Source: Pegea sp. RAD2-039
Lineage: Eukaryota > Chordata > Thaliacea > Salpida > Salpidae
DNA: 64,000 bases
Assembly: GCA_034620365.1 (NCBI GenBank)
Contig: JAQGEQ010000334.1
Coordinates: 1 to 64,000, forward strand
Direction: 5' to 3'
In this document: in pieces, positions 1,558-63,994 of the stretch
How positions within the stretch are numbered: position 1 is the stretch's first letter
Layout: each line of letters begins with the position of its first letter
Position numbers and translations under genes: made by a program
Notes under the pieces: generated by a model
The model's database searches: none
What the model was told of the DNA's origin: nothing
The model's input: only the letters and a program-made list of their open reading frames with translations

Positions 1558-1671
1558 AACCCACAAATATGAGACTAAAACTGGCTTATTAAAAAGGTCA
1601 ATTTCTGTTCATATACACTGGAATTGGAAAGCTCTTCTGATCCTAAGATTTAGAAACTGACATACTCAGTT
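1558..1671 (+). ncRNA. Family A Sm-RNA-like unit, copy 1
   Basis: The 5' block starts AACCCACAAATATGAGAC and ends AAAAAG|GTCA, so AG|GT is present. The Sm-like stretch is AGATTTAG. It is followed by hairpin AACTGA-catac-TCAGTT at 1,655-1,671. The upstream text TTCAAGAACTTTA and CTGTTTC is shared with most other A copies. Conserved block H follows at 1,716-1,752. Confidence 0.45.
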
Positions 1672-2109
1672 GAAGTTAAACACAGACATTCTACAGATTT
1701 TTGATCTTGTTGAATATCAATTATTGTTAAAGCCGGTTTCTAATTAGATTAACAAGTACTGTGAGTGTAAAAAATGTCAGAATATTTTTTTCTGGTGTTT
1801 GTATTTGTTCATCTTTTTAGCATACATGAAGCAAGAGATCAGATTTTATCATATTATTAGATTCTTTGTGATCCTCATAAAAGATATTGGTTTGTAGTAG
1901 AAAAACGCTTTAACAGAATTTTTAAGCTAATTCACTTATTTTTCCTATATTTATACATAATCTAATGTTTACTAAAAACAAAAGTTTAAAAATTCTTTTG
2001 TAGAAATGAATTTTGAATCATAAATAAATTTCGCTCTAATTTATGCTAAATAAATCTAAATATTGCGGAATATATAAAAATTTTATAATTATTGTGTTTA
2101 AGTTTCTAT

Positions 2110-2480
2110 TTAAATATGATTTACATTTTATTTAATTATTTTGTAAATATTTTATACAAAAATTTGATCTAATATCAAAATACAAATTCTAATTTTGAAG
2201 AGATTTTACAGAGTAAATTCATTTTTATTTATCTCTATTTTAGTTGTTATGCAATTTGTTTTAACTAAAAAGAACTTCAAGTTAATTCTGTAAAAAGTAA
2301 ATTACTTAAACATACAAACAAAAAATTTTATTTGAAATAAAATTTCCGTAAAATAACATTTTTAGGAAGTAAAATTTTAATATTATATTACATATATTCT
2401 CCTTATGAAAATTTGCTTGTAAAATTCAAAAGTTATTTCCTTTAAAAACGATAAACTAAAGATTGAGATTACTTTATACA
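2110..2480. repeat. Local duplication, partner at 6,655-7,040
   Basis: About 370 bases are nearly identical to 6,655-7,040, including the text around GATCTAA...TCAAAATACAAATTC and the start of a C unit. The copies part at about 2,495 and 7,050. There the second copy switches into a D repeat. Confidence 0.75.
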
Positions 2481-2563
2481 ATAGTTTTGAAATTCATTAC
2501 ATTGAACGAACGTTCTTGTTGGTGTTGTTTTTGTAATTTTAGAACCTGTCCTTTTTTAAGGGT
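2449..2563 (+). ncRNA. Family C Sm-RNA-like unit, copy 1
   Basis: The 5' part contains AAAGATTGAGATTAC. A mid-unit inverted repeat GAACG-aa-CGTTC is present. The Sm-like stretch is GTAATTTTAGAACC, followed by a small hairpin CCTT-tttt-AAGG at 2,550-2,561. It has no AG|GT at the position used in A and B. Confidence 0.35.
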
Positions 2564-2710
2564 GACATAAAGATAAACTTTGCTTATCCTAGTAAAGCTA
2601 AATGGAAATGTTTTTTTATAAATAGTAAGTATTATATAGTTTTGACATATTAAAATTACTAAAGAAAAAATCTATAAACTTTTACTCAATTTCATTTTAT
2701 AATTATTTTA

Positions 2711-2760
2711 ACAATGAAATTCTTTACTATCTGTATCTCTTGCAATATATAATGGGCTCA
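2711..2760 (+). repeat. Block E, diverged copy 1
   Basis: It aligns with the better preserved E copies (TTTACTATCTG...CTTGCAAT...GGGCTCA). It sits between a C unit and an A unit, the position E has elsewhere. The CATC...GATG stem of other copies is lost here. Confidence 0.5.
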
Positions 2761-2862
2761 AACTAGTTTAGGGCAAATTTACTAATTTTCTTTTAATTTC
2801 AACTATATTAAGACATTAATTATTTCATTACATTAACTTCTATTGAACAAACACACTCTTTC

Positions 2863-2974
2863 AAAACAAATTTGAGACTAAAACAGCCTTATTTATAAGG
2901 TTAGCTCTACCAGTTGACAGGGTGATTTAAGCTTCCCATCTTCCGTTTAAAATTTTGAGACTGATATATTCAGT
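2863..2974 (+). ncRNA. Family A Sm-RNA-like unit, copy 2
   Basis: The 5' block ends in a short stem CCTTA-ttta-TAAGG directly before GTTAGC, with AG|GT kept. The Sm-like stretch AAATTTTGAGA precedes hairpin ACTGA-tatat-TCAGT at 2,960-2,974. Nearly the same sequence recurs at 58,358 (copy 21). The 5' edge has lost the usual AACCC. Confidence 0.5.
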
Positions 2975-2984
2975 TGTCTATAAA

Positions 2985-3624: not shown

Positions 3625-3740
3625 CAGCATCACAAACTTAGGATTGAAAGCACTTCATACATAAGGTTTAAGATTTAATGCAATCTGCTTATTGACGTCA
3701 AAAAGATTATTCTTTTTGGAACCTGTTAAATGTTACGGGT
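3625..3740 (+). ncRNA. Family B Sm-RNA-like unit, copy 1
   Basis: The 5' block starts CAGCATCACAAACTTAGG and ends ATAAG|GTTTAAG. Inner hairpin AGATT-taatgc-AATCT lies at 3,671-3,686. The Sm-like stretch is TTCTTTTTGGA, followed by terminal hairpin ACCTGT...ACGGGT (3,721-3,740), closed partly by G-T pairs. Downstream GATTTTATGGTAAATAAT and ATGCTAGTGAAGCAT are kept in the other B copies. Confidence 0.5.
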
Positions 3741-5749: not shown

Positions 5750-5862
5750 CCCACAAATATGAGACTAAAGCAGGCTTATTTATAAGATTATTTTTACAAG
5801 TTGACAGAATGTGTAATATGTTTGAATATTATGAACGACTTTGGAAACTGAAACATTCAGTT
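5750..5862 (+). ncRNA. Family A Sm-RNA-like unit, copy 3
   Basis: The 5' block is well kept (CCCACAAATATGAGACTAAAG) but ends ATAAGATTA, so the AG|GT is lost. The Sm-like stretch is ACTTTGGAA, followed by hairpin AACTGA-aacat-TCAGTT at 5,846-5,862. Confidence 0.4.
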
Positions 5863-8320: not shown

Positions 8321-8442
8321 ATGAAACAAATTTGAAACTAAAACATGCCTGTTTTTAATGTTTAGTGGTTTCTAACAGCAAGTAAAGTGGATTAAACAAT
8401 GATTCCCTAAACCAGTTTTAGATTTGGAGACTGATTTCAGTT
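8321..8442 (+). ncRNA. Family A unit, copy 4, degenerate
   Basis: Only ACAAATTTGAAACTAAAACA is clear in the 5' block, and no AG|GT remains at the usual place. The Sm-like stretch AGATTTGGAGA is kept. The terminal hairpin has shrunk to ACTGATTTCAGT. It is probably a decayed copy. Confidence 0.3.
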
Positions 8443-8599: not shown

Positions 8600-10320
8600 A
8601 AATAAAATACCTTTTGGATTTTTAATTTTCCTGTTTTAGCACAGTTCGCAAAAAAAAATAAGAAAGATAAATTTAAAATAAAAACAATATTTTATTTTTT
8701 AGAAATATTTTTTCGATAACTGTAAACCTTTCTACTAGCTTTAAAGTATTAATTGTTTAGTACATTTCATCTAAACTAAATAAATCTAGTAAAAACTTCT
8801 TGTTTTTATCTTATGTTTATATACTTTCATAGAAATTGCAATTTGCTTTTAAGTATATTTGATTACAAAATATAATTCAAAATATTTTTGGATAAAAATG
8901 AGAAAGTTTTGGTTATTTTATAAATATTTCAGAGAAAATTTGTTTTAACATCAAAATACAAATAATAATTTTGAAGAGTTTTTACAAAGTAAGTTCATTC
9001 TTATTTATTTAAATTTTAGTTGTTAAATGATTCGTTATAACTAAAAATAAATTTACTAAAGTCTGTAAATAGTAGATTACCTAAACATAGAAAAGCAATT
9101 TTATTTGAAATGTTTTCTAATAATATATTTTTAATATTTCTAATTTTTAAACATTTATACTAACTAACTTAAAATTAATTATGTATTTATATTAAACTTA
9201 TTTTTTTTTTTATTTAAAAAAAAGTAAAGTCCAAAAATTACGAAATTGTGTGCTTCACAGTATTAAATAATCTACTTATAATCTAAAACAAACGCTAATA
9301 GATTAATTTTTTGTAGATCTTAATCTCTATTTACTATTAACAAATCGACTTAGAAACGAAAATGAAGATAGAATTTATTTATATATTTTATTGTTTTTCA
9401 CGTTTTGTGTTTCCTTTAAATTTCGAATTCAATTAAACTTTTAGGCATTTTTAAAAAACATTTTTCCTATAGATACTTTTAAACATAATTAATTTGTCAT
9501 TGATAAAAGTTATTTTTTTTTAAATGAAAGTTCTTATTTGACAAGATTAAATTTATAAAAAAATTGTATTCGAAAACAAACAAGAGAGTTTTTCAAAATT
9601 AATTGCTTTAATAACAAGTTTAGTTTATAGAAAAGTTTTTTTTTTTTAATTTCACAATGCAACTAAAACATAAAATTAGTAGGACTGTAGTAAGAAAATA
9701 AGGAATTTCTGGATAATAAAATTTTGCAAAAATTGCATAATTTCAAAATTAAAGATTTACCAAAGTTTGTAGAAAGTAAACATTTTAAAATTTCAATTCG
9801 AAAACCTTAGATTAAAATGCAATAATATTTAACATGAGTATAACGAATTTTACCTGATATTCGAGTGTTATTATTAATATTATCGTTGATTACTATTTTG
9901 AGGTTGAACAAGTTTCAACTTATAAATTATATAAATTATTTTTCTAATAAAAGTAGAAACCTAAGCAAACATATCAAGCTACAAACACTAGGAGTGGTTA
10001 AGGATCTATTTTATTAAAATATTATATTATTCGTTTTAATTCTATTTTTTTTTTCTGAACTAGGAGAAATGGAAAATATTTTCAACATAAACTACTGAAA
10101 GTGTAAACTTAATTGAATTTTAATTTAATAAATAAAGAGTACTAATTATACAATTTTAACAATATAAACATCAAATGCATAGAAATATATAAGAAATGTT
10201 ATTATCAGTGTGAATATTTAAAAATGCTTTAAAAGTTTTCTTATTGTCTTTTCTTATTATTATTAATAATTATTATTATTTTCTTATTGTGTTTTCTAAT
10301 TTTTTATTGCCAATTTTGAA
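8600..10320. repeat. Array spacer, A+T-rich
   Basis: The part from 8,930 to 9,550 repeats 4,840-5,480. The part from 9,560 to 10,320 matches 20,880-21,620 and 56,225-56,960, which precede B copies there too. A TTATTA-rich simple repeat lies near 10,255-10,280. No gene seen. Confidence 0.5.
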
Positions 10321-10333: not shown

Positions 10334-10450
10334 GCAACAGAAACTTAAGATTGATACCACCTTATAAATAAGCATTTAGATTTGACACAATCTGCATAAT
10401 TGCAGAAATCAAGAGTGTTACTATTTTGAAACCCGTTTCTTCTTACGGGT
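10334..10450 (+). ncRNA. Family B Sm-RNA-like unit, copy 2
   Basis: Inner hairpin AGATT-tgacac-AATCT keeps its stem with a different loop from copy 1. Sm-like ACTATTTTGAA is followed by a perfect terminal hairpin ACCCGT-ttcttctt-ACGGGT. The exon-end position reads ATAAGCA, so the donor-like GT is lost. Confidence 0.5.
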
Positions 10451-11085: not shown

Positions 11086-11217
11086 AACCACAATCTTTTG
11101 AGACATGAGACAAAGATTGAGACTACTTGACTTAAAAGTTTGTAAAATCAACGTATTCAACGTACGTTCTTGTTGCTTATACTCATGTCATTTTGGAATC
11201 TGCCTATTTTTAGGGGT
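11086..11217 (+). ncRNA. Family C Sm-RNA-like unit, copy 3
   Basis: The 5' part contains ACATGAGACAAAGATTGAGA. The middle has palindrome AACGTACGTT. Sm-like GTCATTTTGGAA is followed by CCT-attttt-AGG and GGTGACTTTATGG, a tail shared with B. The downstream CTAATGCTAGTGAAGC text is also shared with B. Confidence 0.4.
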
Positions 11218-11568: not shown

Positions 11569-11686
11569 AACCAACAAATATGAGACTAAAACTGGCTTAT
11601 TTATAAGGTCAATATCTTTCATGTATACTAGTCTTACAAAATTCTTGTCTTTTTTTTATAACATTTTGAAACTGAAATATTCAGTT
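11569..11686 (+). ncRNA. Family A Sm-RNA-like unit, copy 5
   Basis: The 5' block ends CTTATTTATAAG|GTCA with AG|GT intact. Sm-like ACATTTTGAA is followed by hairpin AACTGA-aatat-TCAGTT at 11,670-11,686. CTGTTTC lies just upstream. Block H follows at 11,716-11,757, with AAAGCCGGTTTCTAATTAG. Confidence 0.5.
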
Positions 11687-15773: not shown

Positions 15774-17230
15774 ATCATTTGCACAATTTTAAACAAAACA
15801 CATCTATTTTGTCATGAAAGTACGTAAAACAGTCAAACTTGATTAGAATTTTTCGTGAATAACTTTGTTAAAAATAAACATTCTTATTCATAAAACGCCA
15901 ATTTGATTAAGATCCGTAAACGATTTATTCAAATTATTTTTCAACGATTCTGAAGATTACTTTTTTTAAAGATGTGTGGTTAGTTCCTTCACTTTTTGTT
16001 CCTGAACTTTTAAAAGAATTTTTAAAAATAATTTTGACAGCGGTATGTACAAACAATGTTTGATCGTTTTGTTTTCCATTAGACTATGATAAGATAAAAT
16101 TTTACAAAGTAAGTTCACACAGAAAATTTTTTGGTTAGTAATAGAGATACCTAAGGAAGTTTAATATAAGATGATCCAATTTTTTTGATATCAAATCTAA
16201 AATTTACCAACCTCATTATGGAGCTCTACCTAAGTCACGAAAGATAAGATAAATTTTTGAAAAGTCAGAAAAGTATTTAAACAAATTTCGAGTTAAAAGA
16301 AAACTTCTAAACTTCTTAAATGTTTTGTCATTCCAAACATAGAAGCAAAAATTTTTATATTATATGTTTTCTAACAATATATTTACTAATCATTTAAATT
16401 TTATAACCGCTAAACTTGCTAGCACAAAATTGATGTCGAATTTTTGTTGTTTATAATGAGGAAGATTATGTATTTTAATAAACTTAATTATTTTTGTGTC
16501 TGTTTTTATAAGTAAAATAAGAAAATTACCAAATTTCGTGAATCACAAAATTCAAATAAGCTACTCTTAATATAAAACAGACATTAAGTTGTTAATTTTT
16601 ATATAAAATCTTATGGCTATTTACTATTACAAAATCGACTTTTTGTTAAAAAAATCCTAAAGAGAGTTAATCTAATCTTTAAAAAGTCACTTTAAAAGTT
16701 ACTTTTAAATATATTTGGTTACTAATTAAGTTTCAAAATATTATTAAATAAAAAGTTTTAATCCAGAAGTTGAATATCAAATTGAGTTTAAAAAAAATTA
16801 AATTTAGCATTATGACCATATATCTTCTTGGTAACTTTGATTGAAGTTTATTGAAAATTATTCAATTCCAAATTCGTTCAAAGCTATTCAATTATGAGAA
16901 ATGGAGTATAGTGTTTGTATAATAAAGTTTATGGTGTAAACTGGTAAAAAATTGAATTCGTTAAGAATTATCTATTCCGAACTCCAAACCCTTGGATGAT
17001 TTCAACTTTCTTTTATTTTTTAACATATAAAAAATATTATATTTTTACTGAGTAAGAGTACTTTTTAAATTTTATAAAAATTACTGATGAAATTAGCAAA
17101 ATTCTACAGCTATTGCGCGTGGAAACTTATTTTCATCGTTTATATTATCATAAATATGCTAATCCTAGTGAAGATAAATGGAAATGTGTTTTTATAAATA
17201 GTTAGTATTACATAATTTTTACAAAAAATT
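15774..17230. repeat. 3' flank of zinc-finger gene, duplicated
   Basis: It matches 39,462-40,910 with few differences, so the duplication extends well beyond the gene. It is A+T-rich with no other gene seen. From about 16,080 it also resembles 25,500-26,100 and 61,300-61,920 more distantly. Near 17,157 the text CTAATCCTAGTGAAG is the tail seen behind C units, but no C unit remains here. Confidence 0.6.
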
Positions 17231-17624: not shown

Positions 17625-17739
17625 AACCCACAAATATGAGACCAAAACGGGTTTATATATAACATTATGTTTCCCAGGTTAAGCTTACGTGTATCATTTC
17701 TCTTATCATAAATCCATTTGGAAACTGATACATTCAGTT
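17625..17739 (+). ncRNA. Family A Sm-RNA-like unit, copy 6
   Basis: The 5' block is intact (AACCCACAAATATGAGACC) but ends TATATAACATTA, without AG|GT. Sm-like CCATTTGGAA is followed by hairpin AACTGA-tacat-TCAGTT. A second, 5'-less A copy follows with its hairpin end exactly 150 bases further on. Confidence 0.45.
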
Positions 17740-18303: not shown

Positions 18304-19608
18304 ATTTAGTTATGTCTACAAAATCTGATTTTTTTCTAAAAATAAAAGATTAAAAACCTTTTCCAGAAATGAAATTTGAATCATAAGTAAATTCTGCTCT
18401 ATTTTATGCTAATTAAATTAAGATAATGCCGATTATTGAAATTTTCATTAAATATTGGATTAATGTTTGCATTAAAATAAGATTTTCTCAGTGATTAACC
18501 ACTACGTTTAAGTAATGTTGATCCAAACAAACATAATAATAAATAAATGTTTATAAATTAACAATTAAGCTCATTATGTGAAAAATGAGGAAGATTTGAT
18601 TATTTTATGAATACTTTTCAGACAATTAAGTTACAAATAGTAATTTTGAAGGATTTTCATAAAAAAATAAATTTCTACTAATAAAAATATTAATTGTCAT
18701 ACAAATGGTTATAAATAACAGTAAGTAACTAAATTCTGAAAAAAGTTGATAAGGTCATAAAAAATTAAACCTCAATGATAATCATTTTAAATTTAGAAAC
18801 AAGCAATTTCATTTAAAATATCATCTAATAATATTTTAACTAATAATAAAAATTTTAAAACAGCTAAGGAAGCTACTTATTATCCAAACCAATCGTTAAT
18901 AAGTTAATTGTTTTTTCAATTCTTAATCTATAGTTACTTTTACAAAATCGATTTTCGGTTTAAAAAAATCCTATAGAGAGTTAATCTAAGCTTTAAAATG
19001 TCAAGTATGGTCTAATTTCTTTTATAAACGATAACAACCTAATTTTTGCGTTTGAAAATCATACCAGTAAACCATATGCAAGTTAAAAGGTAGCAGTTGA
19101 TAAACTGCTTGGTAATATTGATTACAGTTTTGTTGAAATTCAATCAACTTCAAATTAATATGATATTTAGTCAATTAAACAAATCAGACCGTTGTACCTA
19201 ATCTCTTTCAGTCAGTGTAAAGCTATTTATGAGCTTCTTATAATCTACTGTTTGTGGTGTAAACTGGTAAAACCTTAAAATCGTTATAAATTAATTTTTC
19301 AGAGATCAAAGCCCTTGGATAGTTTCAACTTTTGTTTACTCACTAACTTTTCTAAAATATAAATTTTGCTGACTAAATGTGTATTTTAAATTAAAAAGGA
19401 ACTATTGAAGAAATTGGCAAAAGGTTACATCTACTAAGTGTGGAAAATTATTTTAATTGCATTAATTTAACATTAAGTATCAGCATATAATTGAAGGGCT
19501 GATTTTATTTTTTATAAAAATGTTCGGTGATATTAAAATAAAGCAAGTTATTTGTTTTTGGCTTCGTTTATCTTTTTTTTGTTTCTTAAAAATCAAACAA
19601 GTTATTTG

Positions 19609-20630: not shown

Positions 20631-20742
20631 AACCCACAAACATGAGATTGAAACAGCTTTACTTATAACGCTGGATTTTTCAACTGACATCTTCTATCAC
20701 TCGATTCTTGAAAATGCAATTTGGAAACTGATAACTTCAGTT
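20631..20742 (+). ncRNA. Family A Sm-RNA-like unit, copy 8
   Basis: The 5' block AACCCACAAACATGAGATTG leans towards family B in its GATTGAAAC. It ends TTATAACGCT, so AG|GT is lost. Sm-like CAATTTGGAA is followed by hairpin AACTGA-taact-TCAGTT. Block H lies at 20,764-20,810. Confidence 0.45.
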
Positions 20743-21627
20743 GAATTAAAGTTAGCTTCTTATTGTTGATTACCAAATATCAATAAATTCGCTTTCTACT
20801 GAGATTAGCTAGATTTTTTTATTTTGAGCTTTTTATATTTGGAATACTAATTTCAGCATTTTACATAAAAGTCACTTTAAATTCAATAAAAAAATTGCAT
20901 TAGAAAACAAACAAGACAGTTTTCCAAAATTAGTTGCTTTAATAACAAGTTTAGTTTATAGAAAAGTTTTTTAAAATTTCACAACTAAAACATAAAATTA
21001 GTAGGACTGTAGTAAGAAAGATAAGGAATTTCTGAATAATAATATCTTGCAAAAATTGCATAATTTCAAAATTAAAAGATTTACCAAAATTTGCAGTAAG
21101 TAAACATTTTAAAACTTTAACTCACAAACATTAGATTAAAGTGCAATAATATATAAGATGAGTATAACAAAATTTTACCTGAAATTCGGGTGTTATTATT
21201 AACGTTATCATTAATTATTATTTTGAGGTTGAACAAGTTTCAACTTATAAATTATATAAATAGTTTTTCTAATGAAAGTAGAAACATAAGCGAAAATATC
21301 AAGCTAAAAAACACTGGAGGTTGTTAAGGATCTATATTATTAAAATATCATATTATTTTTGTTTATTCTTAAATTTTTTATTGAATATATTTTCTGAACT
21401 GCAAAAATGGAAAATATTTTCAACATAATTTACTGAAAGTGTAAACTTATTAGAATATTAATTTACTAAATTAAGTTAACAAATTATACAATTTTAACAA
21501 TCTAAACATCCAATACACAGAAATATATAAAAAATGTTATTATCAGTGTCATTATTGAAAATGCTTTGAGAATTTTTTTTTATTTTCATTTAAAAATTAG
21601 TCATTACAATTTTTAAGCTATTTTTTT

Positions 21628-21746
21628 CAGCACCAGAAACATAAGATTGAGACCACTTTATATATAAGGTTTGAGATTCAACTCAATTTGCGTAGATGCA
21701 ACCATCTAAAAAGTTTTTGTAATTGGAGCCCGTTTCTTCTTACGGG
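21628..21746 (+). ncRNA. Family B Sm-RNA-like unit, copy 3
   Basis: It begins CAGCACCAGAAACATAAG and ends the 5' block TATATAAG|GTTTGAG with AG|GT present. Inner arms AGATT and AATTT are partly mismatched. Sm-like AGTTTTTGTAATTGGA precedes hairpin CCCGT-ttcttctt-ACGGG (21,729-21,746). Confidence 0.5.
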
Positions 21747-22378: not shown

Positions 22379-22512
22379 GAACCACAATCTATTGAGACAT
22401 GAAACAAAGATTGAGACTACTTGATTTAAAATTTTTTAACAATAACGCATTAAACGTACGTTCTCGTTGCTCATATTCATGTCATTTTGGAATTTGTCAT
22501 CTTTTCAGGGTG
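22379..22512 (+). ncRNA. Family C Sm-RNA-like unit, copy 5
   Basis: It keeps ACATGAAACAAAGATTGAGA, a CAACG-like region around AACGTACGTT with CGTTG, and Sm-like GTCATTTTGGAA. The terminal hairpin is weak here (CATCTTTTCAGGG). Confidence 0.35.
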
Positions 22513-22728: not shown

Positions 22729-23417
22729 TTAATTTACTACTTAACATTTAGTTTCCATTCTAATAAGACAAGAAGTTTTTCATTACATTACTTCTATTTA
22801 ACCAATACATCCTTTTTTAACTTTAGTATTGCAAACATTTATTTTTTTACATACAAACTTTACTAAAGATGTTTTTTTTTTTTAAATATAAATCAAAATC
22901 TTTAGTTCAATATTAAATAATAATACAAATAAAAAAAGAGAATTATTTTTAAAAACACTACTTAAAAGGAGACTTTTGTCATGTATTGTAATTTCTGTAT
23001 TGCTTAAAAGAGTTATTTCTACTTAGTCAACATATCTTTTTGATATTTTGTTTTTTTAGACTATGATAAGATTAAATATACAAAGTTGGTTGCTATAATA
23101 ACAAGTTAAATTTATAGAAATTTTATTTTTTAATGCAACTAAAACATAAAAATAGTAAGACTGTAGTAAGAAAATAAGGAATTGTTTAATAATAAAATCA
23201 AGCAAAAATTGCATAATTTTAAAAATCTACCAAATTTTGCAGAAAGTAGACATTTTAAAATTTTAACTTAGAAACCTTAGATTAAAATGCAATAATATAT
23301 AACCTGTGTATAACGAAGTTTTACCTGATATTTGGGTGTTATTGTTTATGTTATTGTTTTTTATTATTTTGAGGTTGAATAAGTTTCAACTTATAATTTA
23401 TATAAAATTATTGTTGT

Positions 23418-23532
23418 TCAGCATCACAAACTTAGGATTGAAACCACTTCATACATAAGATTTAAGATTTAATGCAATCTGCTTATCAACGTCAGAAAGA
23501 TTAGTTTTTTAAACCCGTTAATTGTTACGAGT
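23418..23532 (+). ncRNA. Family B Sm-RNA-like unit, copy 4
   Basis: Inner hairpin AGATT-taatgc-AATCT is perfect. Sm-like TTAGTTTTTTAAA precedes terminal arms ACCCGT and ACGAGT, which pair with one mismatch. The 5' block ends ATAAGATTTAAG, without AG|GT. Confidence 0.45.
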
Positions 23533-25065: not shown

Positions 25066-25190
25066 AAACCCACAAATTTGAGACTGAAACAGGATTACTT
25101 ATAAGGTTGGGTTTTTTTTTTTCTTTCAAGCTGTAGCTAAAATCTACTAATTTAATTTCTCCTTAAACTTGGAATCTGATATTTTCAGTT
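25066..25190 (+). ncRNA. Family A Sm-RNA-like unit, copy 9
   Basis: AAACCCACAAATTTGAGACTG, ending TTATAAG|GTTGGG with AG|GT intact. The Sm-like part is weak (TTAAACTTGGAA). The hairpin is CTGA-tattt-TCAG. A long T run lies in the middle. Block H is at 25,226-25,263. Confidence 0.45.
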
Positions 25191-26488: not shown

Positions 26489-26600
26489 AGCCCACAAATA
26501 TGAAATTAAAACAGGCTTATTTATAAGGTTATCTTTTAGTTGACAGACAATTTATACTCTGTATTGTGACGGGCCTATTTGGAAACTGATATATTCAGTT
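26489..26600 (+). ncRNA. Family A Sm-RNA-like unit, copy 10
   Basis: The block ends CTTATTTATAAG|GTTATC with AG|GT intact. Sm-like CTATTTGGAA is followed by hairpin AACTGA-tatat-TCAGTT. After the hairpin it reads AACAGTGAAA rather than the usual GAATTTAAAA. Confidence 0.5.
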
Positions 26601-27923: not shown

Positions 27924-28038
27924 AACCCGCAAATATGAGATTAAAACAGGTTTATATATAAGATTATGTTTCTCAAGTTGATATAATCTGATTTCATGCT
28001 GTGTTAACGAATTCATTTAGAAACTGATACATTCAGTT
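27924..28038 (+). ncRNA. Family A Sm-RNA-like unit, copy 11
   Basis: AACCCGCAAATATGAGATTA, ending TATATAAGATTA, so the donor-like GT is lost. Sm-like TTCATTTAGAA is followed by hairpin AACTGA-tacat-TCAGTT. It is paired with half copy 12, whose hairpin ends 149 bases later. Confidence 0.45.
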
Positions 28039-31947: not shown

Positions 31948-32040
31948 TACCACTTCATATATAAAGTTTAAGATTTAATGCAATCAGCTAATCAACGTCA
32001 AAAAGATTATTTTTTTTGGAACCCGTTAATTGTAATGGGT
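31948..32040 (+). ncRNA. Family B unit, copy 5, 5'-truncated
   Basis: The unit starts abruptly at CTACCACTTCATATATAAAG, lacking the first 20 bases. Inner hairpin AGATT-taatgc-AATC(A) is slightly weakened. Sm-like GATTATTTTTTTTGGA is the longest seen. Terminal hairpin ACCCGT...ATGGGT keeps pairing through a T-G pair. Confidence 0.4.
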
Positions 32041-35153: not shown

Positions 35154-35269
35154 AACCCACAAATATAAGAATAAATCTGGTTTATTTATAAGGTCAATAT
35201 CTTTCATATATACATAACTTACAAAATTCTTGTCTTTTTTGTAGCATTTTGAAACTGATATACTCAGTT
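35154..35269 (+). ncRNA. Family A Sm-RNA-like unit, copy 14
   Basis: AACCCACAAATATAAGAATA, ending TTTATTTATAAG|GTCA with AG|GT intact. Sm-like GCATTTTGAA is followed by hairpin AACTGA-tatac-TCAGTT. Block H is at 35,310-35,352. It is the partner of copy 5, and its 5' block has drifted more than the 3' end. Confidence 0.5.
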
Positions 35270-39461: not shown

Positions 39462-40960
39462 ATCATTTGCACAATTTTAAACAAAACACATCTATTTTGT
39501 CATGAAAGTACGTATAAGAGTCAAACTTGATTAGAATTTTTCGTGAATAACTTTTTTAAAAATAAACATTCTTATTCATAAAACACCAATTTGATTAAGA
39601 TCCGTAAACGATTTATTCAAATTATTTTTCAACGATTCTGAAGATTACTTTTTTTAAAGATGTGTGGTTAGTTTCTTCACTTTTTGTTCCGGAACTTTTA
39701 AAAGAATTTTCCAAAATACTTTTGACAGCGGTATGTACAAACAATGTTTGATCGTTTTGTTTTCCATTAGACTATGATAAGATAAAGTTTTACTAAGTAA
39801 GTTCACACAGAAAATTTTTTGGTTAGTAATAGAGATACCTAAAGAAGTTTAATATAAGATGATCCGATTTTTTTGATATCAAATCTAAAATTTACCAGCC
39901 TCATTATGGAGCTCTACCTAAGTCAAGAAAGAAAAGATAAATTTTTGAAAAGTCAGAAAAGTATTTAAACAAATTTCGAGTTAAAAGAAAACTTCTAAAC
40001 TTCTTAAATGTTTTGTCATTCTAAACATAGAAGCAAAAATTTTTATATTATATGTTTTCTAATAATATATTTACTAATCATTTAAATTTTATAACCGCTA
40101 AACTTGCTAGCACAAAATTGATGTCGAATTTTTGTTGTTTATAATGAGGAAGATTATGTATTTTAATAAACTTAATTATTTTTGTGTCTGTTTTTATAAG
40201 TAAAATAAGAAAATTACCAAATTTCGTGAATCACAAAAGTCAAATAAGCTACTCTTAATATAAAACAGACATTAAGTTGTTAATTTTTATATAAAATCTT
40301 ATGGCTATTTACTATTAAAAAATCGACTTTTTGTTTAAAAAAATTCTAAAGAGAGTTAATCTAAGCTTTAAAAAGTCACTTTAAAAGTTACTTTTAAATA
40401 TATTTAGTTACTAATTAAGTTTCAAAATATTATTTAATAAAAAGTTTTAATCCAGAAGTTGAATATCAAGTTGAGTTTAAAAAGTTAAATTTAGCATTAT
40501 GACCATATATCTTCTTGATATTTTTAATTGAAGTTTATTGAAAATTATTCAATTCCAAATTCGTTCAAAGCTATTTAATTATGAGAAATGGAGTATAGTG
40601 TTTGTATAATAAAGTTTGTGGTGTAAACTGGTAAAAAATTGAATTCGTTAATATTCATCTATTCCGAACTCAATATCCTTGGATGATTTCAACTTTCTTT
40701 TATTTTTAACATATAAAAAATATAATATTTTTACTGAGTAAGAGTACTTTTTAAATTTTATAAAAATTACTGATGAAATTAGCAAAATTCTACAGCTATT
40801 GCGCGCGGAAACTTATTTTCATCGTTTATCTTATCATAAATATGCTAATCCTAGTGAAGATAAATTGAAATTTGTTTTTATAAATGGTAAGTATTACATA
40901 ACTTTGACAAAATATTATTACTTAAAAAAGTCTTTTTACTCTTACGCAATTTTATTTTAT
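39462..40960. repeat. 3' flank of second zinc-finger gene
   Basis: It is nearly identical to 15,774-17,280. A+T-rich, no further gene. The 80-codon frame at 40,799 overlaps the C/B tail text and block E and is not conserved in the partner. Confidence 0.55.
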
Positions 40961-41310: not shown

Positions 41311-41425
41311 AACCCACAAATATGAGACCAAAACAGGTTTATATATAAGATTATGTTTCCCAGGTCAACCTTACGTGTATCATTCCTCTTATCATAAATC
41401 CATTTATAAACTGATACATTCAGTT
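41311..41425 (+). ncRNA. Family A Sm-RNA-like unit, copy 15
   Basis: AACCCACAAATATGAGACCA, ending TATATAAGATTA without AG|GT. The Sm-like part has weakened to CCATTTATAA. Hairpin AACTGA-tacat-TCAGTT is intact. It is paired with half copy 16, hairpin end 150 bases later. Confidence 0.4.
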
Positions 41426-42147: not shown

Positions 42148-43458
42148 ATTTAGTTATGTATACAAAATCTGATTTTTTTCTAAAAATAAAAAATTAAAAT
42201 TCTTTTCCAAAAATGAAATTTGAATCATAAGTAAATTCTGCTCTATTTTATGCTAATTAAATTAAGATAATGCCGATTGTTGAAATTTTCATTAATTATT
42301 GGATTAACGTTTGCATTTAAAAAAGATTTTCTTCTTGATTAACGACTACGTCTAAGTAATGTTGATCCAAACAAACATAATAATAAATAAATGTTTATAA
42401 ATTAACAATTAAGCTAATTTTGTGGAAAAATGAGAAAGATTTGATTATTTTATGAATACTTTTCAGACAATTAAGTTACAAATAGTAATGTTGAAGAATT
42501 TTCATGAGAAAAATAAATTTACTAATAATAAAAATATTAATTGTCATACTAATGGTTATAAATAACACTAAGTCTAACTAAATTCTGAAAAAAGTTGATA
42601 AGTTCATAAAAAATTAAACTTCAATGATAACCATTTTAAACTTAGAAACAAGCAATTTCATTTAAAATATCATCTAATAATATATTAACTAATAATAAAA
42701 ATTTTAAAACAGCTGAGGAAGCTACTTATAATCCAAACCAAACACTAATAAATTAATTTTTTTTTTCAATTCTTAATCTATAGTTACTTTTACAAAATCG
42801 ATTTTCGGTTTAAAAAAATCCTATAGAGAGTTAATCTAAGCTTTTAAAAGTCAAGTATGGTCTAATTTCTTTTATAAACGATAACAGCCTATTTTTTGCG
42901 TTTGAAAATTATACCAGAAAACCATATGCAAGTTAAAAGGTAGCAGTTGATTCACTACTTGGCAATATTGTTTACAGTTTTGTTGAAATTCATTCAACTT
43001 CAAATTAAATTGATATTTAGTCAATCAAACAAATCAGACCGTTGCACCTAATCTCTTTCAGTCAGTATAAAGCTATTTATAAGCTTCTTATAATCTACTG
43101 TTTGTGGTGTAAACTGGTAAAACATTGAAATCGTTATAAATTAATTTTTCAGAGCTCAAAGTCCTTGGCTAGTTTCAACTTTTTTTTACTTACTAACTAT
43201 TCTAAAATATAAATTTTGCTGACTAAATGTGTATTTTAAATTAAAAAGAAACTATTGAAGAAATTGGCAAAAGGTTACATCAACTACGTGTGGAAAATTA
43301 TTTCAATTTCATTAATTTAACATAAAATATCAGCAAATAATTCAAAGGATGATTTGATTTTCTCTACAAACATTCAGTAATAACAAAATCAAGCAAGTTG
43401 TTTGTTTTTGGCTTCGTTTATCTTTTTTTTGTTTCTTAAAAATCAAACAAGTTATCTG

Positions 43459-49596: not shown

Positions 49597-49713
49597 AACC
49601 CATAAGTGTGAAACTAAAACTGGCTTATTTATAAGGCCAAATTCTTTCCATTTAGACTAGTTTTAGAAAGCTCTTTTGTTAAACCTAATATTTTGAAACT
49701 GATGTACTCAGTT
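49597..49713 (+). ncRNA. Family A Sm-RNA-like unit, copy 17
   Basis: AACCCATAAGTGTGAAACTA, ending CTTATTTATAAG|GCCA, a GC rather than GT at the donor-like site. Sm-like ATATTTTGAA is followed by hairpin AACTGA-tgtac-TCAGTT. Block H is at 49,751-49,794. Confidence 0.45.
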
Positions 49714-52830: not shown

Positions 52831-52943
52831 AACCCACAAAAATGAGACAAACAGGTTTATGAATAAGATTATGTTTCTCATGTTATCCTAAATTGTATCA
52901 TTTCTGTTTTCTTAATTTCATTTAGAAACTGATATATTCAGTT
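52831..52943 (+). ncRNA. Family A Sm-RNA-like unit, copy 18
   Basis: AACCCACAAAAATGAGACAA with a small deletion, ending GAATAAGATTA without AG|GT. Sm-like TTCATTTAGAA is followed by hairpin AACTGA-tatat-TCAGTT. It is paired with half copy 19, hairpin end 148 bases later. Confidence 0.4.
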
Positions 52944-53660: not shown

Positions 53661-54969
53661 ATTTAGTTATGTTTACAAAATCTGATTTTTTTCTAAAACA
53701 AAAGTTTAAAAATCTTTTCAAGAAATGAATTTTGAATCATAAATAAATTCCGCTCTATTTTATGATAAACAAAGTTAAATAATGCAGAATATTGAAACAT
53801 TTAATAAAAATTGGGGTGAGGTTTGCACTTAAAAACGACTTTCTTTTTGATTAACGACTATGTCTAAGTAATGTTGATCACAACAAACATAATAACAAAT
53901 AAATTCGTATAAATTTAAAACTAAGCTCATTTTGTGGAAAAATGAGAAAGATTTGATTATTTTATGAATACTTTTCAGACAATTAAGTTACAAATAGTAA
54001 TGTTGAAGAATTTTCATGAAAAAAATATATTTTCTAATAATAAAAAAATTAATTGTCATACAAATGGTTATAAATAACCGTAAGTCTAAGTAAATTCTAA
54101 AAAAAGTTGATAAAGTCATAAAAAATTAAACCTCAATGATAATCATTTTAAACTTAGAAACAAGCAATTTCATTTAAAATATCATCTAATAATATATTAA
54201 CTAATAATAAAAATTTCAAAACAGCTAAGGAAGATACTTATAATCCAAAACAATCGCTAAAAAGTTAATTTTTTGTTCAATTCTTAATCTATATTTACTT
54301 TTACAAAATCGATTTTCGGTTTAACAAAATCCTATAGAGAGTTAATCTAAGCTTTTAAAAGTCATGTATGGTGTAATTTCTTTTAAGAATGATAACAACC
54401 TATTTCTTGCGTTTGAAATTTATACCAGGAAACCATATGCAAGTTAAAAGGTAGCAGTTGATACACTGCTTGGTAATATTGTTTACAGTTTTGTTGAAAT
54501 TCATTCAACTTCAAATTAATATGATATTTAGTCAATCAAACAAATCAGACCGTTGTACCTAATCTCTTTCAGTCAGTATAAAGTTATTTATAAGCTTCTT
54601 TTAATCTACTGTTTGTAGTGTAAACTGGTAAAACCTTGAAATCGTTATAAATTAATTTTTCAGAGCTCAAAGCCTTTGGCTAGTTTCAACTTTTGTTTAC
54701 TCACTAACTTTTCTAAAATATAAATTTTGCTGACTAAGTGTGTATTTTTAATTAAAAAGGAATTATTGAAAAAATTGGCAAAAGTTTACATCTACTACGT
54801 GTGGAAAATTATTTTAATCGCTCTAATTTAGCATAAAATATCAGCAAATAATTTAAAGGATGATTTGATTTTCTATACAAACGTTCGGTAATAACAAAAT
54901 CAAGCGAGATGTTTGTTATTCGTTTAGTTTAATCTTTTTTTGTTTCTTAAAAATCAAACAAGTTATTTG

Positions 54970-55993: not shown

Positions 55994-56105
55994 AACCCAC
56001 AAACGTGAGATTGAAACAGCTTTACTTATAAGGCTGGATTTTTCAGCTGACATCTTCTATCACTCGATTCTTGAAAATGGAATTTGGAAACTGATAACTT
56101 CAGTT
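55994..56105 (+). ncRNA. Family A Sm-RNA-like unit, copy 20
   Basis: Partner of copy 8: AACCCACAAACGTGAGATTG, ending TTATAAGGCT. Here AAG is present but is followed by GC. Sm-like GAATTTGGAA is followed by hairpin AACTGA-taact-TCAGTT. Block H is at 56,127-56,173. Confidence 0.45.
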
Positions 56106-56992
56106 GAATTAAAGTTAGCTTCTTATTGTTGATTACCAAATATCAATAAATTCGCTGTCTACTGAGATTAGCTAGATTTTTTTTTTTTGGAACTTTTTTT
56201 TATTTGGAATACTAATTTCAGCATTTTACATAAAAGTCACATTAAATTCAATAAAAAAATTGCATTCGAAAACAAACAAGACAGTTTTCCAAATTTAGTT
56301 GCTTTAATAACAAGTTTAGTTTATAGAAAAGTTTTTGAAAATTTCACAACTAAAACATAAAATTAGTAGGACTGTAGTATGAAAGATAAGGAATTTCTGA
56401 ATAATAATATCTTGCAAAAATTGCATAATTTCAAAATTAAAAGATTTACCAAAATTTGCAGTAAGTAAACATTTTAAAACTTTAACTCACAAACCTTAGA
56501 TTAAATGCAATAATATATAATATGTGTATAACAAAATTTTACCTGATATTCGGGTGTTATTATTAACGTTATCATTAATTATTATTTTGAGGTTGAACAA
56601 GTTTCAACTTATAAATTATATAAATAGTTTTTCTAATGAAAGTAGAAACATAAGCGAAAATATCAAGCTAAAAAACACTGGAGGTTGTTAAGGATCTTTA
56701 TTATTAAAATATTATATTATTTTTATTTCATTCTAAATTTTTTATTGAATATATTTTCTGAACTGCAAAAATGGAAAATATTTTCAACGTAATTTACTGA
56801 AAGTGTAAACTTATTAGAATATTAATTTACTAAATTAAGTTAACAAATTATACAATTTTAACAATATAAACATCCAATACATAGAAATATCTAAAAAATG
56901 TTATTATCAGTGTCATTATTGAAAATGCTTTGAGAATTTTTTATTATTTTCATTTAAAAATTAGTCATTACAATTTTTAAGCTATTTTTTTT

Positions 56993-57112
56993 CAGCACCA
57001 CAAACATAAGATTGAGACCACTTTATATATAAGGTTTGAGATTCAACTCATATTGCTAAGATGTAACCATCTAAAAAGTTTTTGTAATTGGAGCCCGTTT
57101 CTTCTTACGGGT
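56993..57112 (+). ncRNA. Family B Sm-RNA-like unit, copy 6
   Basis: Partner of copy 3: CAGCACCACAAACATAAG, ending TATATAAG|GTTTGAG. The inner stem is altered (TCATATTGC). Sm-like AGTTTTTGTAATTGGA and terminal hairpin CCCGT...ACGGG are identical to copy 3. Confidence 0.5.
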
Positions 57113-57744: not shown

Positions 57745-57878
57745 AACCACAATCTATTGAGACATGAAACAAAGATTGAGACTACTTGACTTAAAAGTTT
57801 TTAACATCAACGCATTCAACGTACGTTCTCGTTGCTCATATTCATGTCATTTTGGAATTTTTTATCTTTTCAGGGTGA
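57745..57878 (+). ncRNA. Family C Sm-RNA-like unit, copy 8
   Basis: Partner of copy 5. CAACGTACGTTCTCGTTG allows CAACG/CGTTG pairing. Sm-like GTCATTTTGGAA. The terminal hairpin is weak (TTATCTTTTCAGGG). Confidence 0.35.
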
Positions 57879-58357: not shown

Positions 58358-58471
58358 AACCCACAAATTTGAGACTAAAACAGCCTTATTTATAAGGTTA
58401 GCTCTACCAGTTGACAGGTCGATTTAAGTTTCCCATCTTCCGTTTCAAATTTTGAGACTGATATATTCAGT
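58358..58471 (+). ncRNA. Family A Sm-RNA-like unit, copy 21
   Basis: CTGTTTC upstream, then AACCCACAAATTTGAGACTA, ending CCTTATTTATAAG|GTTA with AG|GT. Sm-like AAATTTTGAGA is followed by hairpin ACTGA-tatat-TCAGT. It is missing from the paralogous block at about 22,951. Confidence 0.5.
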
Positions 58472-58479
58472 TTATAAAG

Positions 58480-59220
58480 ATAATAAATTTATACAAAGTC
58501 TAATAATAATAAAAATAAAGTTGACAATAATTTGTTTCGTAAAATATTTGTGTGAAGAAGTAGAGACTGTAGATAGTATTTATTTTAATATTTTATTGTT
58601 TATCATGCATTTTATTTTCTTTAAAATTCAAATTCATTTAAACTTATATGCAATTGTATATGACATTTTGGGTAAAATTACTTTTAAACATAAACATTGT
58701 TGGTGTCTAGTGCTGGTCTTTTTTAGTTGTCCTTCTTTTGGTGGTTGTTTTTATTAATTTTTTCCATATACACACTACTTAAAAGGAGAATTTTGTCATG
58801 TATTGTAATTTCTGTATTGCTTAAAAGAGTTATTTCTACTTTGTCATCATTTTTTTTTGATATTTTGTATTTTTAGACTATGATAAGATTAAATATACAA
58901 AGTTGGTTGCTTTAATAACAAGTTAAATTTATAGAAATTTTATTTTTTAATGCAACTAAAACATAAAATTAGTAAGACTGTAGTAAGAAAATAAGGATTT
59001 TTTTAATAATAAAATCAAGCAAAAATTGCATAATTTTAAAAATACCAAATTTTGCAGAAAGTAAACATTTTAAAATTTTAACTTAGAAATCTTAGATTAA
59101 AATGCAATAATATATAACCTGAGTTTAACGAAGTTTTACCTGATATTTGGGTGTTATTGTTTATGTTATTGTTTTTTATTATTTTGAGGTTGAATAAGTT
59201 TCAACTTATAATTTATATAA
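58480..59220. repeat. Array spacer
   Basis: The part from 58,490 to 58,760 matches 2,985-3,240. The part from 58,770 onward matches 22,960-23,410. The 101-codon frame at 58,452-58,757 overlaps this conserved flank and has no recognisable product. Confidence 0.5.
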
Positions 59221-59233: not shown

Positions 59234-59348
59234 CAACATCACAAACTTAGGATTGAAACAACTTCATACATAAGATTTAAGATTTAATGCAATCTGCTTA
59301 TCAACGTCAGAAAGATTAGTTTTTTAAACCCGTTAATTGTTACGAGTG
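59234..59348 (+). ncRNA. Family B Sm-RNA-like unit, copy 7
   Basis: Partner of copy 4. Inner hairpin AGATT-taatgc-AATCT is intact. Sm-like TTAGTTTTTTAAA and terminal arms ACCCGT/ACGAGT. No AG|GT. Confidence 0.45.
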
Positions 59349-60880: not shown

Positions 60881-61004
60881 AAACCCACAAATTTGAGACT
60901 AAAACAGGATTAATTATAAGGTTGGGTTTTTTTTTTCTTTCAAGCTGTAGCTAAAATCTACTAATTTAAATTCTCCTTAAATTTGGAAACTGATATTTTC
61001 AGTT
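60881..61004 (+). ncRNA. Family A Sm-RNA-like unit, copy 22
   Basis: Partner of copy 9, ending TTATAAG|GTTGGG. The Sm-like region is better preserved here (AAATTTGGAAAC). The hairpin is AACTGA-tatt-TTCAGTT. Block H is at 61,040-61,077. Confidence 0.45.
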
Positions 61005-61079: not shown

Positions 61080-62280
61080 TGCTTCAAATGCAAGAATTGT
61101 CTTTTTGGTATATGTTTTCGTTTATATTTTCAACATACATAAAACATACAGACACAACGTTTAAATATTATTAAATTATTTGTGTGGCTTTAAAGTGATG
61201 CTTCTATTTAGTCAAAAAACGCTGTTCTTGAACTTATAAAAGAATTTTAAGAAAATGCTTTTGACACACCGCGTTGGACAAACAATTTTTGATTGTTTTG
61301 TTTTTCATTAGACTAATAATTAACTAAATTAAATAAATAAATAAATTAGACTAAAAAAATCTTTTGGGTAGTAATAAGCATACATGAAGAAGACTAATAT
61401 AAGATGATCCAATTTCTTGGATTTTAACTAAATTTTACCAGCTTTATTTTGGAGTTCTACCTAAGTCAAGAAGGATAAAATAAATTTTGAAAAATCAGAA
61501 AAGTATTTAAACAAATTTTGAGTTCAAAGAAAACTTTTAAACTTCTTAAATGTTTTGTCATTCCGAACATAGAAGCAAAAAATTTTATTTAAATTGTTTT
61601 CTAATAATATATTTATTAATATTTCAATTTCTACAGCAGCTAAATTTGTTAACATGAAATTGATGTTGAATTCCTTTTCTTTAGAATGAGGAAGATTATG
61701 TATTTATAATAAATCTATTTATTTTGATAACTGTTTTTAAATGTAGAATAAAAAAATTATCAAATTTCGTGATTCACAAGAATTAAATAAGCTACTCTTA
61801 ATCCAAAACAGACATTAAGTTGTTAATTATATTTAAATTCTTATGTCTATATACTATTACAAAATCGATTTTTTGTTTCAAAAAGCCTAATGAGAGTTAA
61901 CCTAAGCTTTGAAAAGTCGTTTAAGCTATATCTTTCTTTAGACGTTATAATATAAAGGTTGAATACATTTCAAATTTTTTGCGTTTGAACATTATATAAG
62001 GGAACCGAGTGCAAGATAAAAAGTAGTACTTGATACACTGCTTGTTAATATCTATAGAGGAGTATGAATTTCATTCAACTTCAAATTAACCCAAGATATA
62101 GGCCAACATTCGCCTGTGAATTTCGTTCTAATTCTTGTGTACTCAGCATATAATTATATAAAAGCTTTGTATAATCTACTGTTTGTAGTGTTAAGTGGTA
62201 AAACCTTATAATTAAAAAAAACACGACAAATAATTAAGAAATTAAATTTTTCTGTTTGGTTTTTATGGCCTTTACTTTTT
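61080..62280. repeat. Array spacer
   Basis: Copy of 25,265-26,480, with 61,300-61,920 also resembling the flank 3' of the zinc-finger genes (AAGATGATCCAATTT and GTTTTGTCATTCC text). No gene seen. Confidence 0.5.
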
Positions 62281-62290
62281 TTCTGTTCCG

Positions 62291-62396
62291 ACCCACAAAT
62301 ATGAAACTAAAACAGGCTTATTTATCAGGTTATCGTTTCCAGTTGACAGACAATTTATACTGTGACAGGCCTATTTGGAAACTGATATAATCAGTT
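62291..62396 (+). ncRNA. Family A Sm-RNA-like unit, copy 23
   Basis: Partner of copy 10. The block ends CTTATTTATCAG|GTTATC, so AG|GT survives a change in the adjacent base. Sm-like CTATTTGGAA is followed by hairpin AACTGA-tataa-TCAGTT, a loop change only. Confidence 0.5.
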
Positions 62397-63384
62397 AACA
62401 ATGAAAATACACAGTTGTATAGATTATTGGTTTGGATGATTTTCAATGATATCACTTGAATATTAAATAATTTCAAGAAAATGCTTTTAACACCGCGTTT
62501 GTCAATCAATATTTGATATTTTAGCATTTCTTTCAACTATGAAAAGATCGATTATTACAAAGTAAGTAACTTCAAAAAGTATGTTCTTTTTTTAGTAAGG
62601 TATAACTAAAGTATATTATTAAGGGGAAGTGTTACCTGCCCTCAAAGATGTTTACACAATAAAATATTCTAAATATTATCATCAGTAGATTAAAAAGTTT
62701 GTTTGCTAGTTTTTCTAGATAATTCTATATTTTTTGTTTAAATTGTTTTATTGCTTAATCGAAATTGCAATTTGCTTTTATGTATACTTGGATAAAAAAT
62801 AAATTTCAAAATGTTATTCAATAATAAATTATAATCGAGAAGTTGTATCAAAAATGGTGTTTTAGAAATCTAAACGTTAAATATGGCATTAAGACTATAT
62901 TTCACCTTGTTAATATTGATTGAACTTTGTTGAAATTTATTCAACTCCAAATTAGTTTAAATATATTCCTTCATTAGAAATGGAGCTTTTTTTCAGTTTA
63001 TTATTATATAAAAGCTTCTTATATTCTAGTGTTTGTGGTGTAAACGGGCAAAAAATTGAATTCGTTAATAATCATCTATTCAGAACTCAATACCCTTGGA
63101 TAATTTCCACTTTCTTTTATTTTTTTAACGTATAAAAATATGATATTTTTGGTGAACACTTGTACATTTTAAATTTAATTAAAGTTACTGATGAAATTAG
63201 CAAAGTTTACAGCTATTGCGCCGTAAAATTATTTTGATCGTTTATGCTATCATAAATATGCAAATCCTAGTGAAGCTAATTGAAAATGTGTTTTTATAAA
63301 TAGTAAGTATTAAATAATTTTGAAAAATTAAATTTACTTAAAGAAAATCCTTAAACTGTTATGCTATTTCATTTTATACATATT

Positions 63385-63460
63385 TAAACAATGAAATGCT
63401 TTACCAGCTACATCCCTTGCGATGTAATGTGAGCTCACCCCATAAACTTACTCGTTAAAA
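63385..63460 (+). repeat. Block E, copy 9
   Basis: TTTACCAGCTACATCCCTTG, then CGATGTAATGTGAGC. CATC/GATG arms are intact. The GAAGTACTTC palindrome lies at about 63,506. Confidence 0.6.
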
Positions 63461-63731
63461 GTGAATTTACTACTCAACATCTAATTTCAACTCTAATAAG
63501 ACAAGAAGTACTTCATTACATTTACTTCTCTTTAACAAATACATTCTTTTCAAACTTTTTTATAGGAAACAAATATTACTTTTTACATAGAACATTTACT
63601 AAGAAATTACAGTTTCTCTTTTTTTAAGTATACATCAAAAACTATAATTGAGTCTAAAAAAATAAATGCGAATTAATAACAAGTTTATTTTTAAATGTTT
63701 TTTTTTTAAGAACTTCACTTTTTGCTGTTTT

Positions 63732-63845
63732 AACCCACAAATATAAGACTAAAACAGGTTTATATATAAGATTATGTTTCTCAAGTGATATAATCTGATT
63801 TCTTTCTGTGTTAACGATTTCATTTAGAAACTGATACATTCAGTT
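63732..63845 (+). ncRNA. Family A Sm-RNA-like unit, copy 24
   Basis: Partner of copy 11: AACCCACAAATATAAGACTA, ending TATATAAGATTA. Sm-like TTCATTTAGAA is followed by hairpin AACTGA-tacat-TCAGTT. It is paired with half copy 25, hairpin end 149 bases later. Confidence 0.45.
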
Positions 63846-63931
63846 GAATTTAAAAGCATATTTTTCTCTAAATTGGTGGTTTTGATGAATTTCAATTATT
63901 ATTGAAGTCGCTTACTAAGGCTTGATTTTTT

Positions 63932-63994
63932 TCAATTGACATCAAACCTACCAAATGTTGTTTCATTATTTTTTAAAAGCTGATAATTTCAGTT
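63932..63994 (+). repeat. Family A 3' half copy 25
   Basis: Sm-like TTATTTTTTAAAAG and hairpin CTGA-taatt-TCAG, cut by the window end a few bases later. Confidence 0.5.

Follow-up and report, generated by a model that had tools for sequence, protein, structure and literature searches.

The first 64,000 nucleotides (nt) of contig JAQGEQ010000334.1 from the salp Pegea sp. RAD2-039 (assembly GCA_034620365.1, forward strand), the whole stretch analysed here and called the window below, carry an array of short, repeated, gene-like units. Judged from their sequence, the units quite probably encode RNAs of the Sm class. With about even confidence, we read them as a lineage-expanded, diversified superfamily of U7-sized genes of the small nuclear RNA (snRNA) type, whose Sm-class products would probably be antisense guides or adaptors.

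Repeated units in the window

The window is the start of a 234,909-base contig (C134) in a genome of 105.7 Mb and 387 contigs. The genome is AT-rich, and GC content along the window was 20–32% per 2-kb step. The order conserved block, variable middle, Sm-like run, terminal hairpin recurred across the window in three families, A, B, and C, and units of this layout were present where the original prediction had placed them. A profile search with profiles built from window copies gave 46 primary units: 20 of family A, 11 of B, 5 of C, and 10 of D. The B units include four diverged ones and a partial one without a promoter. The three families of the original prediction stood; it had counted about 31 units and had missed the fourth family, D. 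All units had also been placed on the plus strand, which is incorrect for the 10 D units; these lie on the minus strand, with the proximal sequence element (PSE) at 19256, 27229, 31103, 43106, 54617, 62187, and 63037 among them. The D units were opposite in strand to their A, B, and C neighbours on the other stretches examined as well.

A loose scan for PSE, TATA box, Sm site, and perfect hairpin found 26 sites in the window, 24 of them at array units. The same scan on 20 Markov-resampled windows found 0–6 sites (mean 2.65). The repeats are genuine and exceed what chance would give. A strict hairpin pattern matched 37 of the 41 window units given to it, the other four being two A and two D units. 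Duplicated stretches in the window were about 59–96% identical, the closest lying at offsets of 11.5, 23.6–23.8, and 35.4–35.8 kb. Growth of the array by segmental duplication, as proposed earlier, is supported.

Promoter of the units

The genome was searched for its own U2, U6, U5, and U1 genes, giving 19, 15, 15, and 19 matches, respectively (19, 13, 15, and 18 over the cut-off). In the upstream regions read, the U1, U2, U5, and U6 genes had CCCACAAAnnnnnAAACTT with a TATA box after it. The spacing between CACAAA and the RNA start was taken from 61 motif-located matches, among which overlapping loci may show one gene twice and poor placements were kept. It was 55–58 nt in 10/10 U1, 55–57 in 16/18 U2, and 54–55 in 15/18 U5 matches, so that 41 of the 46 pooled matches fell at 54–58. 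Poor motif placement appears to account for the five misses. The U6 distance was 61–63 in 15/15 matches. The RNA polymerase II genes of this genome and its polymerase III gene, U6, therefore differ in PSE-to-start spacing.

A weight matrix made from the U genes alone had 15 of its 21 best window rows at array units, corresponding to 14 distinct units. At the same score, five random windows gave 2, 8, 7, 4, and 10 rows, so the enrichment at the units is clear and not absolute. By this matrix, 30 of 39 array units scored above 5 bits, the random windows having been counted at the score of the 21 best rows. By eye, the TATA box lay about 23–28 nt from CACAAA in typical array units, as in U1, U2, and U5 (about 31 in U6), and a few units were without a clear one.

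The conserved 5′ block of the units is almost certainly the snRNA promoter of this genome, PSE plus TATA, and not part of the RNA as had first been proposed; by sequence it is the element shared with the U1, U2, U5, and U6 genes. Since its kind and spacing match those of U1, U2, and U5, RNA polymerase II is expected to begin transcription some 55 bases downstream from CACAAA. T runs would stop polymerase III, and their presence inside leaders and Sm sites agrees with polymerase II.

PSE-to-TATA spacing sets the polymerase choice in plants, and it may do so here too (the PSE-to-start distance is 61–63 in U6, against mostly 54–58 in U1, U2, and U5). An exact TGACGTCA element was seen further upstream in 3/4 U1, 8/10 U5, 2/10 U6, and 0/11 U2 genes, and no element like it in any of 37 array units. 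U2, U5, and U6 genes were interleaved within about 1–2 kb in several clusters on contigs C32, C39, and C81.

Predicted RNA, Sm site and hairpin

The RNA start was set at +55 as in the U genes, and the true start may differ by several bases. The predicted RNA was 48–64 nt in A, with a leader of 21–37 nt (18 units), 52–58 nt in B if it ends at the first hairpin (6 units), 66–67 nt in C (5 units), and 53–81 nt in D (8 units). Overall, 32 of the 37 window units measured, of the 41 given, had a predicted RNA of 48–67 nt. The full length of 110–130 nt first proposed for a unit is right for promoter plus RNA and too long for the predicted RNA itself (48–67 nt in A, B, and C, 53–81 nt in D). In most units a variable leader of about 21–40 nt began at the predicted start itself; variability in A set in at about +46.

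The Sm-like sites of the window units read AATTTTGA, ATTTGGA, ATTTTGAG and similar, and are of the spliceosomal type. The terminal hairpin of A, C, and D consists of a 6-bp stem closing a 5-nt loop. Consensus folding returned this hairpin alone both for A (63 distinct RNAs) and for C (35 distinct RNAs), and only a weak 3-bp pairing for B (41 distinct RNAs).

Covariation was scored on 33 window hairpins (18 distinct) of A, C, and D, leaving out the two A units that failed the strict pattern and adding by hand the two D units that also failed it. The stem was paired in 97.2% of cells, with 32 double-change cells, and 0 of 500 shuffles were as high. Two other measures showed no excess: double-change pairs (5/6) were reached by 361/500 shuffles and further pair types (6) by 500/500. 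The covariation proposed as a check was thus seen in A, C, and D on two measures of four, and B offered only its weak pairing. The signal was mostly the contrast of A with C and D; within D, ATTGAA/TTCAAT and GTTGAA/TTCAAC stems also covaried. The leaders folded no better than shuffled ones in A (z = +0.36, 37 leaders) and in the C102 cluster (+0.26, 10 leaders), and z for all 71 leaders together was −0.04.

Rfam models gave no match in the window at gathering score and six matches at E-values up to 10, none of them spliceosomal, U7, spliced-leader (SL) or SmY. By sequence, the units are unlike any RNA family that could be matched. The earlier remark that no U1, U2, U4, U5 or U6 could be recognised agrees with this search. 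Its comparison with an snRNA, SL RNA or SmY layout holds for the snRNA type, an Sm-like site followed by a hairpin; SL and SmY are disfavoured, with no fixed splice donor and no conserved 5′ hairpin in A and C102.

Downstream of B units, a further conserved stretch resembling TGATTTTATGGTAAATA was followed by a TAGTGAA hairpin, for example at 21746–21790. The same kind of stretch and hairpin was also seen ahead of A units, where no clear B promoter accompanied it. Given this second hairpin-like stretch, B RNAs could be longer than predicted.

Copy number and spread in the genome

DNA searches with one query unit per family covered the best 40 of 145 (A), 77 (B), 98 (C), and 125 (D) first-look candidates, and all matches listed were on contigs C134, C92, C96, and C283. 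A profile search of 244 kb gave 98 A, 61 B, 45 C, and 59 D full-length rows; in some of these the match covers just a portion of the profile, and promoterless halves are counted among the A rows. Genome-wide, the Sm-plus-hairpin pattern gave 196 A-type places with up to 3 mismatches allowed (control 0) and 504 C/D-type places with up to 2 (control 5), counts that include pseudogenes. Among the matches listed, A-type places were on C134, C92, C96, and C283, and C/D-type places on C92, C96, C23, C64, and C102.

At 20 places fetched from C23, C64, and C102, the tail was present in 20/20, and in all of them a PSE-like motif, with no more than 4 mismatches, stood 70–110 nt before it. By eye, the PSE was at its usual place with a TATA-like stretch after it in 19/20, locus L150 being the one that differed. 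The exact tail pattern had no match in viral_contigs and two bacterial matches in genome_contigs, which were taken as chance. A dispersing short interspersed nuclear element is disfavoured, since the places among the matches listed are clustered and not scattered.

Divergence of the leader

Divergence in A was measured on 30 loci with 3.2-kb context. The mean pairwise difference per 5-nt bin was 0.00–0.16 in the promoter, 0.28–0.42 from +46 to +80, and 0.01–0.09 in Sm site and hairpin; flanks within about 450 nt gave 0.03–0.25 per 20-nt bin. At a flank divergence of 0.10–0.13, leaders differed by 0.427 (72 pairs, not independent). A partition model on the same loci gave rates of 0.19 for the promoter, 0.19 for Sm site and hairpin, 0.44–0.48 for near flanks, 1.04 for the leader, and 1.18–1.44 for far flanks.

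Among nine units of C102, leader mismatch was 0.544 with gaps 0.285, close to shuffled leaders (0.582 and 0.245). The upstream 60 nt differed by 0.184, the downstream region by 0.288, and Sm site plus hairpin by 0.039; upstream sequence was 13–18% apart. Loci L157 and L160 were 4.8% diverged in their flanks and 44% in their leaders, counting gaps. The other ten pairs below 7% flank divergence had leaders 0–12% apart, and this contrast suggests that the leader changes in jumps. In seven older, partly overlapping window pairs, leader divergence was 0.294 against a flank divergence of 0.137. We read the leader as released from ordinary constraint and as having been replaced or diversified in the course of time. 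Selection for leader diversity is likely but not proven.

Proposed function and competing explanations

In the proposed mechanism, SNAPc and RNA polymerase II would act on PSE and TATA to make a short capped RNA of about 48–67 nt, longer in some D units. This RNA would consist of the variable leader of about 21–40 nt, a spliceosome-type Sm site, and the terminal 6-bp hairpin. An Sm ring would assemble on it, and the free leader, unstructured in A and C102, would base-pair with other RNAs. The leader would be allowed or driven to diversify, with promoter, Sm site, and hairpin staying fixed. The array would then form a repertoire of antisense guides or adaptors, Sm-class ribonucleoproteins working in the manner of U7. 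By analogy, an antisense function of the leaders is plausible, at a little under even confidence. More tentatively, the units may form a diversifying guide repertoire of several hundred members, with hypervariable, single-stranded leaders that would recognise fast-changing targets such as transposon or virus transcripts, that is, defence or gene control built on an snRNP (small nuclear ribonucleoprotein) chassis and not on Argonaute.

If the units are expressed, the part of the RNA by which U7 finds its target varies from gene to gene, and the family would be the largest of the Sm class known to us. The snRNP would, if the proposal is true, go from a handful of fixed machines to a programmable repertoire, in parallel to the snRNA-promoter origin of nematode piRNA (Piwi-interacting RNA) genes. 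Silent units would still be a clear case of an snRNA promoter spread in hundreds of copies.

Several results weigh against the guide reading. The A leader rate was not above that of the far flanks (1.04 vs 1.18–1.44), and in A sub-clades the leader was 2–3 times as fast as near flanks, 1.0–1.3 times as fast, or equal. The contrast was weaker in B and C, with leader rates of 1.36 and 1.50, promoter rates of 0.79 and 0.91, and flank rates of 0.85–1.38. The four youngest window duplicate pairs showed no leader excess (28/538, 0.052, vs 896/16973, 0.053, in flanks), and promoters of these pairs were not clearly conserved (14/288 vs 126/4394 in flanks, in the youngest pair). A PSE-like motif stood at the expected place in 69/98 A, 48/61 B, and 42/45 C rows, and two D units had degenerate promoters. 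Leader folding leaned to structure in B, C, and D (z about −1; 5, 4, and 8 leaders). The mean longest antisense match of 37 leaders to the zinc-finger genes, retrotransposon pieces, and other predicted RNAs of the window differed from that of shuffles by no more than 0.5 nt in either direction. We also considered positive selection acting on every leader; the young pairs without excess and the equally fast far flanks weaken that reading.

The strongest competitor, which we hold to be unlikely though a serious one, is a mostly non-functional tandem satellite, in which snRNA-type genes were amplified with their surroundings, many are drifting, and the leader is merely unconstrained. The far-flank rates, the neutral leaders and unconserved promoters of young pairs, the promoterless halves and degenerate D units, and the 29/98 A rows without a PSE-like motif at the expected place all fit it. 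Against it, the A promoter and the Sm site plus hairpin changed at about 0.4 of the near-flank rate, hairpin changes were compensatory, the same layout was kept in the separate clusters C23, C64, and C102, and leader divergence exceeded that of near flanks.

Two further explanations are improbable, and to a similar degree. In the first, the units would make piRNA-like precursors whose first 21–35 nt feed Piwi, with the Sm site and hairpin ending and protecting the precursor, in parallel to nematode 21U-RNAs. The variable leader of 21–40 nt directly at the predicted start of most units suits this. Like type-1 piRNA (21U-RNA) genes of nematodes, the array has an snRNA-derived promoter and many short, clustered units, each with its own 5′ sequence. 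To our knowledge, 21U precursors are without a conserved Sm site and hairpin, whereas the array has both, together with a full PSE and TATA. Here Sm site and hairpin are the most conserved parts of the RNA, and units number hundreds, not thousands. According to passages of one study, the clustered motifs of nematode piRNAs arose from the SNAPc motif found in snRNA genes (PMC6436959), and parts of another give 28-nt precursors from more than 15,000 21U loci (PMC7917550).

In the second, the units would make SmY-like RNAs that function only through the Sm core, by buffering or recycling Sm proteins, with the leader a spacer. Conservation limited to the Sm site and hairpin within the predicted RNA of A and C102 would be expected of such RNAs. 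A pure spacer should match the near flanks, but older-pair leaders diverged about 2–4 times more. SmY and SL RNAs are short Sm-class RNAs in multigene families, and SmY has stem-loops both 5′ and 3′ of its Sm site; A and C102 differ from it in having no conserved 5′ hairpin, while the few B, C, and D leaders had the z of about −1 given above (on 5, 4, and 8 leaders).

Spliced-leader RNAs with variable leaders are very unlikely. The Sm site with hairpin and the multicopy clusters are common to SL RNAs, and B leaders scored above shuffles as splice donors (4.50 vs 3.28, 6 units). However, mean difference stayed at 0.27 or more in every 5-nt bin between +46 and +80 of the A leader, so there is no fixed donor downstream of a shared leader as in SL RNA. 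GT-anchored donor scores were not above shuffles in A (3.17/3.37), D (2.75/4.03), and C102 (2.27/2.71), and level in C (4.40/4.35). The rotifer SL sequence was absent genome-wide at up to 1 mismatch.

Least probable of all are true U7 snRNA genes in many copies: size and order (leader, Sm site, hairpin) agree and histone stem-loops occur in the genome (of 73 matches, 35 passed the cut-off; 9/14 control genomes matched at a loose E-value, 0 over the cut-off), but 57 leaders complemented the downstream regions of two near-identical histone copies no more than shuffled ones (mean 12.0 vs 12.4; the best single leader was reached by 2% of its own shuffles), the Sm sites are spliceosomal, and Rfam gave no match.

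Comparison with known systems

The predicted array RNAs resemble U7 in a length of about 60 nt, a 5′ leader (antisense in U7 and proposed to be so here), an Sm site, and a 3′ hairpin. They differ from it in having hundreds of copies with different leaders, a spliceosomal-type Sm site, and no match to the two histone regions. The U7-type Sm site is AAUUUGUCUAG, and the sites of the array units differ from it. The text of PMC7026596 was not found to contain this string; in its passages, U7 target choice is set by the 5′ end and changes when the 5′ end is changed.

The U1, U2, and U5 genes of the same genome share PSE, TATA, and start spacing with the array, as well as an Sm-like site before a 3′ hairpin. 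The predicted array RNA is much shorter, has a variable leader, and matches no U1, U2, U4 or U5 model, and none of 37 units has a TGACGTCA-like upstream element.

HSURs are of the Sm class and act by base-pairing. They are few and viral, in contrast to the large, diversified cellular family proposed here; the likeness lies in being small nuclear RNAs, with one or more HSURs working through other RNAs. PMC12687793 describes at least one HSUR as acting via target-directed microRNA decay. Well-studied animals continue to yield new Sm-class snRNAs, and the passages of PMC4053861 that report this describe no family of the array's kind. No published account of such arrays was found, which, with partial literature coverage, is weak evidence of absence.

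Unit inventory and neighbouring features

Unit limits below run from PSE start to hairpin end.

1562..1671, +, A unit
2450..2562, +, B unit, diverged (profile; approximate limits, by eye)
2865..2975, +, A unit
3631..3739, +, B unit, to end of first hairpin
5752..5862, +, A unit
8325..8442, +, A unit, diverged, short hairpin loop (missed by strict hairpin pattern)
9799..9919, +, C unit
10338..10449, +, B unit
11089..11217, +, B unit, diverged (profile; approximate limits)
11573..11686, +, A unit
16850..16933, −, D unit, degenerate promoter
17629..17739, +, A unit (predicted RNA about 17684–17739)
19132..19256, −, D unit
20635..20742, +, A unit
21123..21244, +, C unit
21634..21746, +, B unit
22383..22512, +, B unit, diverged (profile; approximate limits)
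23269..23390, +, C unit
23425..23531, +, B unit
25071..25190, +, A unit (missed by strict hairpin pattern)
26249..26385, −, D unit, long leader
26493..26600, +, A unit
27121..27229, −, D unit
27928..28038, +, A unit
29570..29685, +, A unit
30995..31103, −, D unit
31949..32030, +, B unit, partial, without recognised promoter (profile; approximate limits)
35158..35269, +, A unit
40537..40620, −, D unit, degenerate promoter
41315..41425, +, A unit
42982..43106, −, D unit
49601..49713, +, A unit
52835..52943, +, A unit
54493..54617, −, D unit
55998..56105, +, A unit
56488..56608, +, C unit
56999..57111, +, B unit
57748..57877, +, B unit, diverged (profile; approximate limits)
58362..58472, +, A unit
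59084..59205, +, C unit
59240..59346, +, B unit
60886..61004, +, A unit
62063..62187, −, D unit
62294..62396, +, A unit
62929..63037, −, D unit
63736..63845, +, A unit

Five A-type 3′ halves without a promoter were present in addition, about 150 nt downstream of A units, and are probably the result of tandem half-duplication. Their hairpins lie near 17873, 28172, 41559, 53077, and 63978 (+), as judged from where the profile match begins.

The array encloses a pair of closely related C2H2 zinc-finger genes (14961–15770 and 38574–39458, +), whose finger repeats are 84 bases long; both genes belong to the segmental duplication of the array. Open frames at 2–583, 23991–24440, and 59775–60254 (−) resemble fragments of a reverse transcriptase, which from their translated motifs we take to be that of a retrotransposon lacking long terminal repeats (non-LTR).

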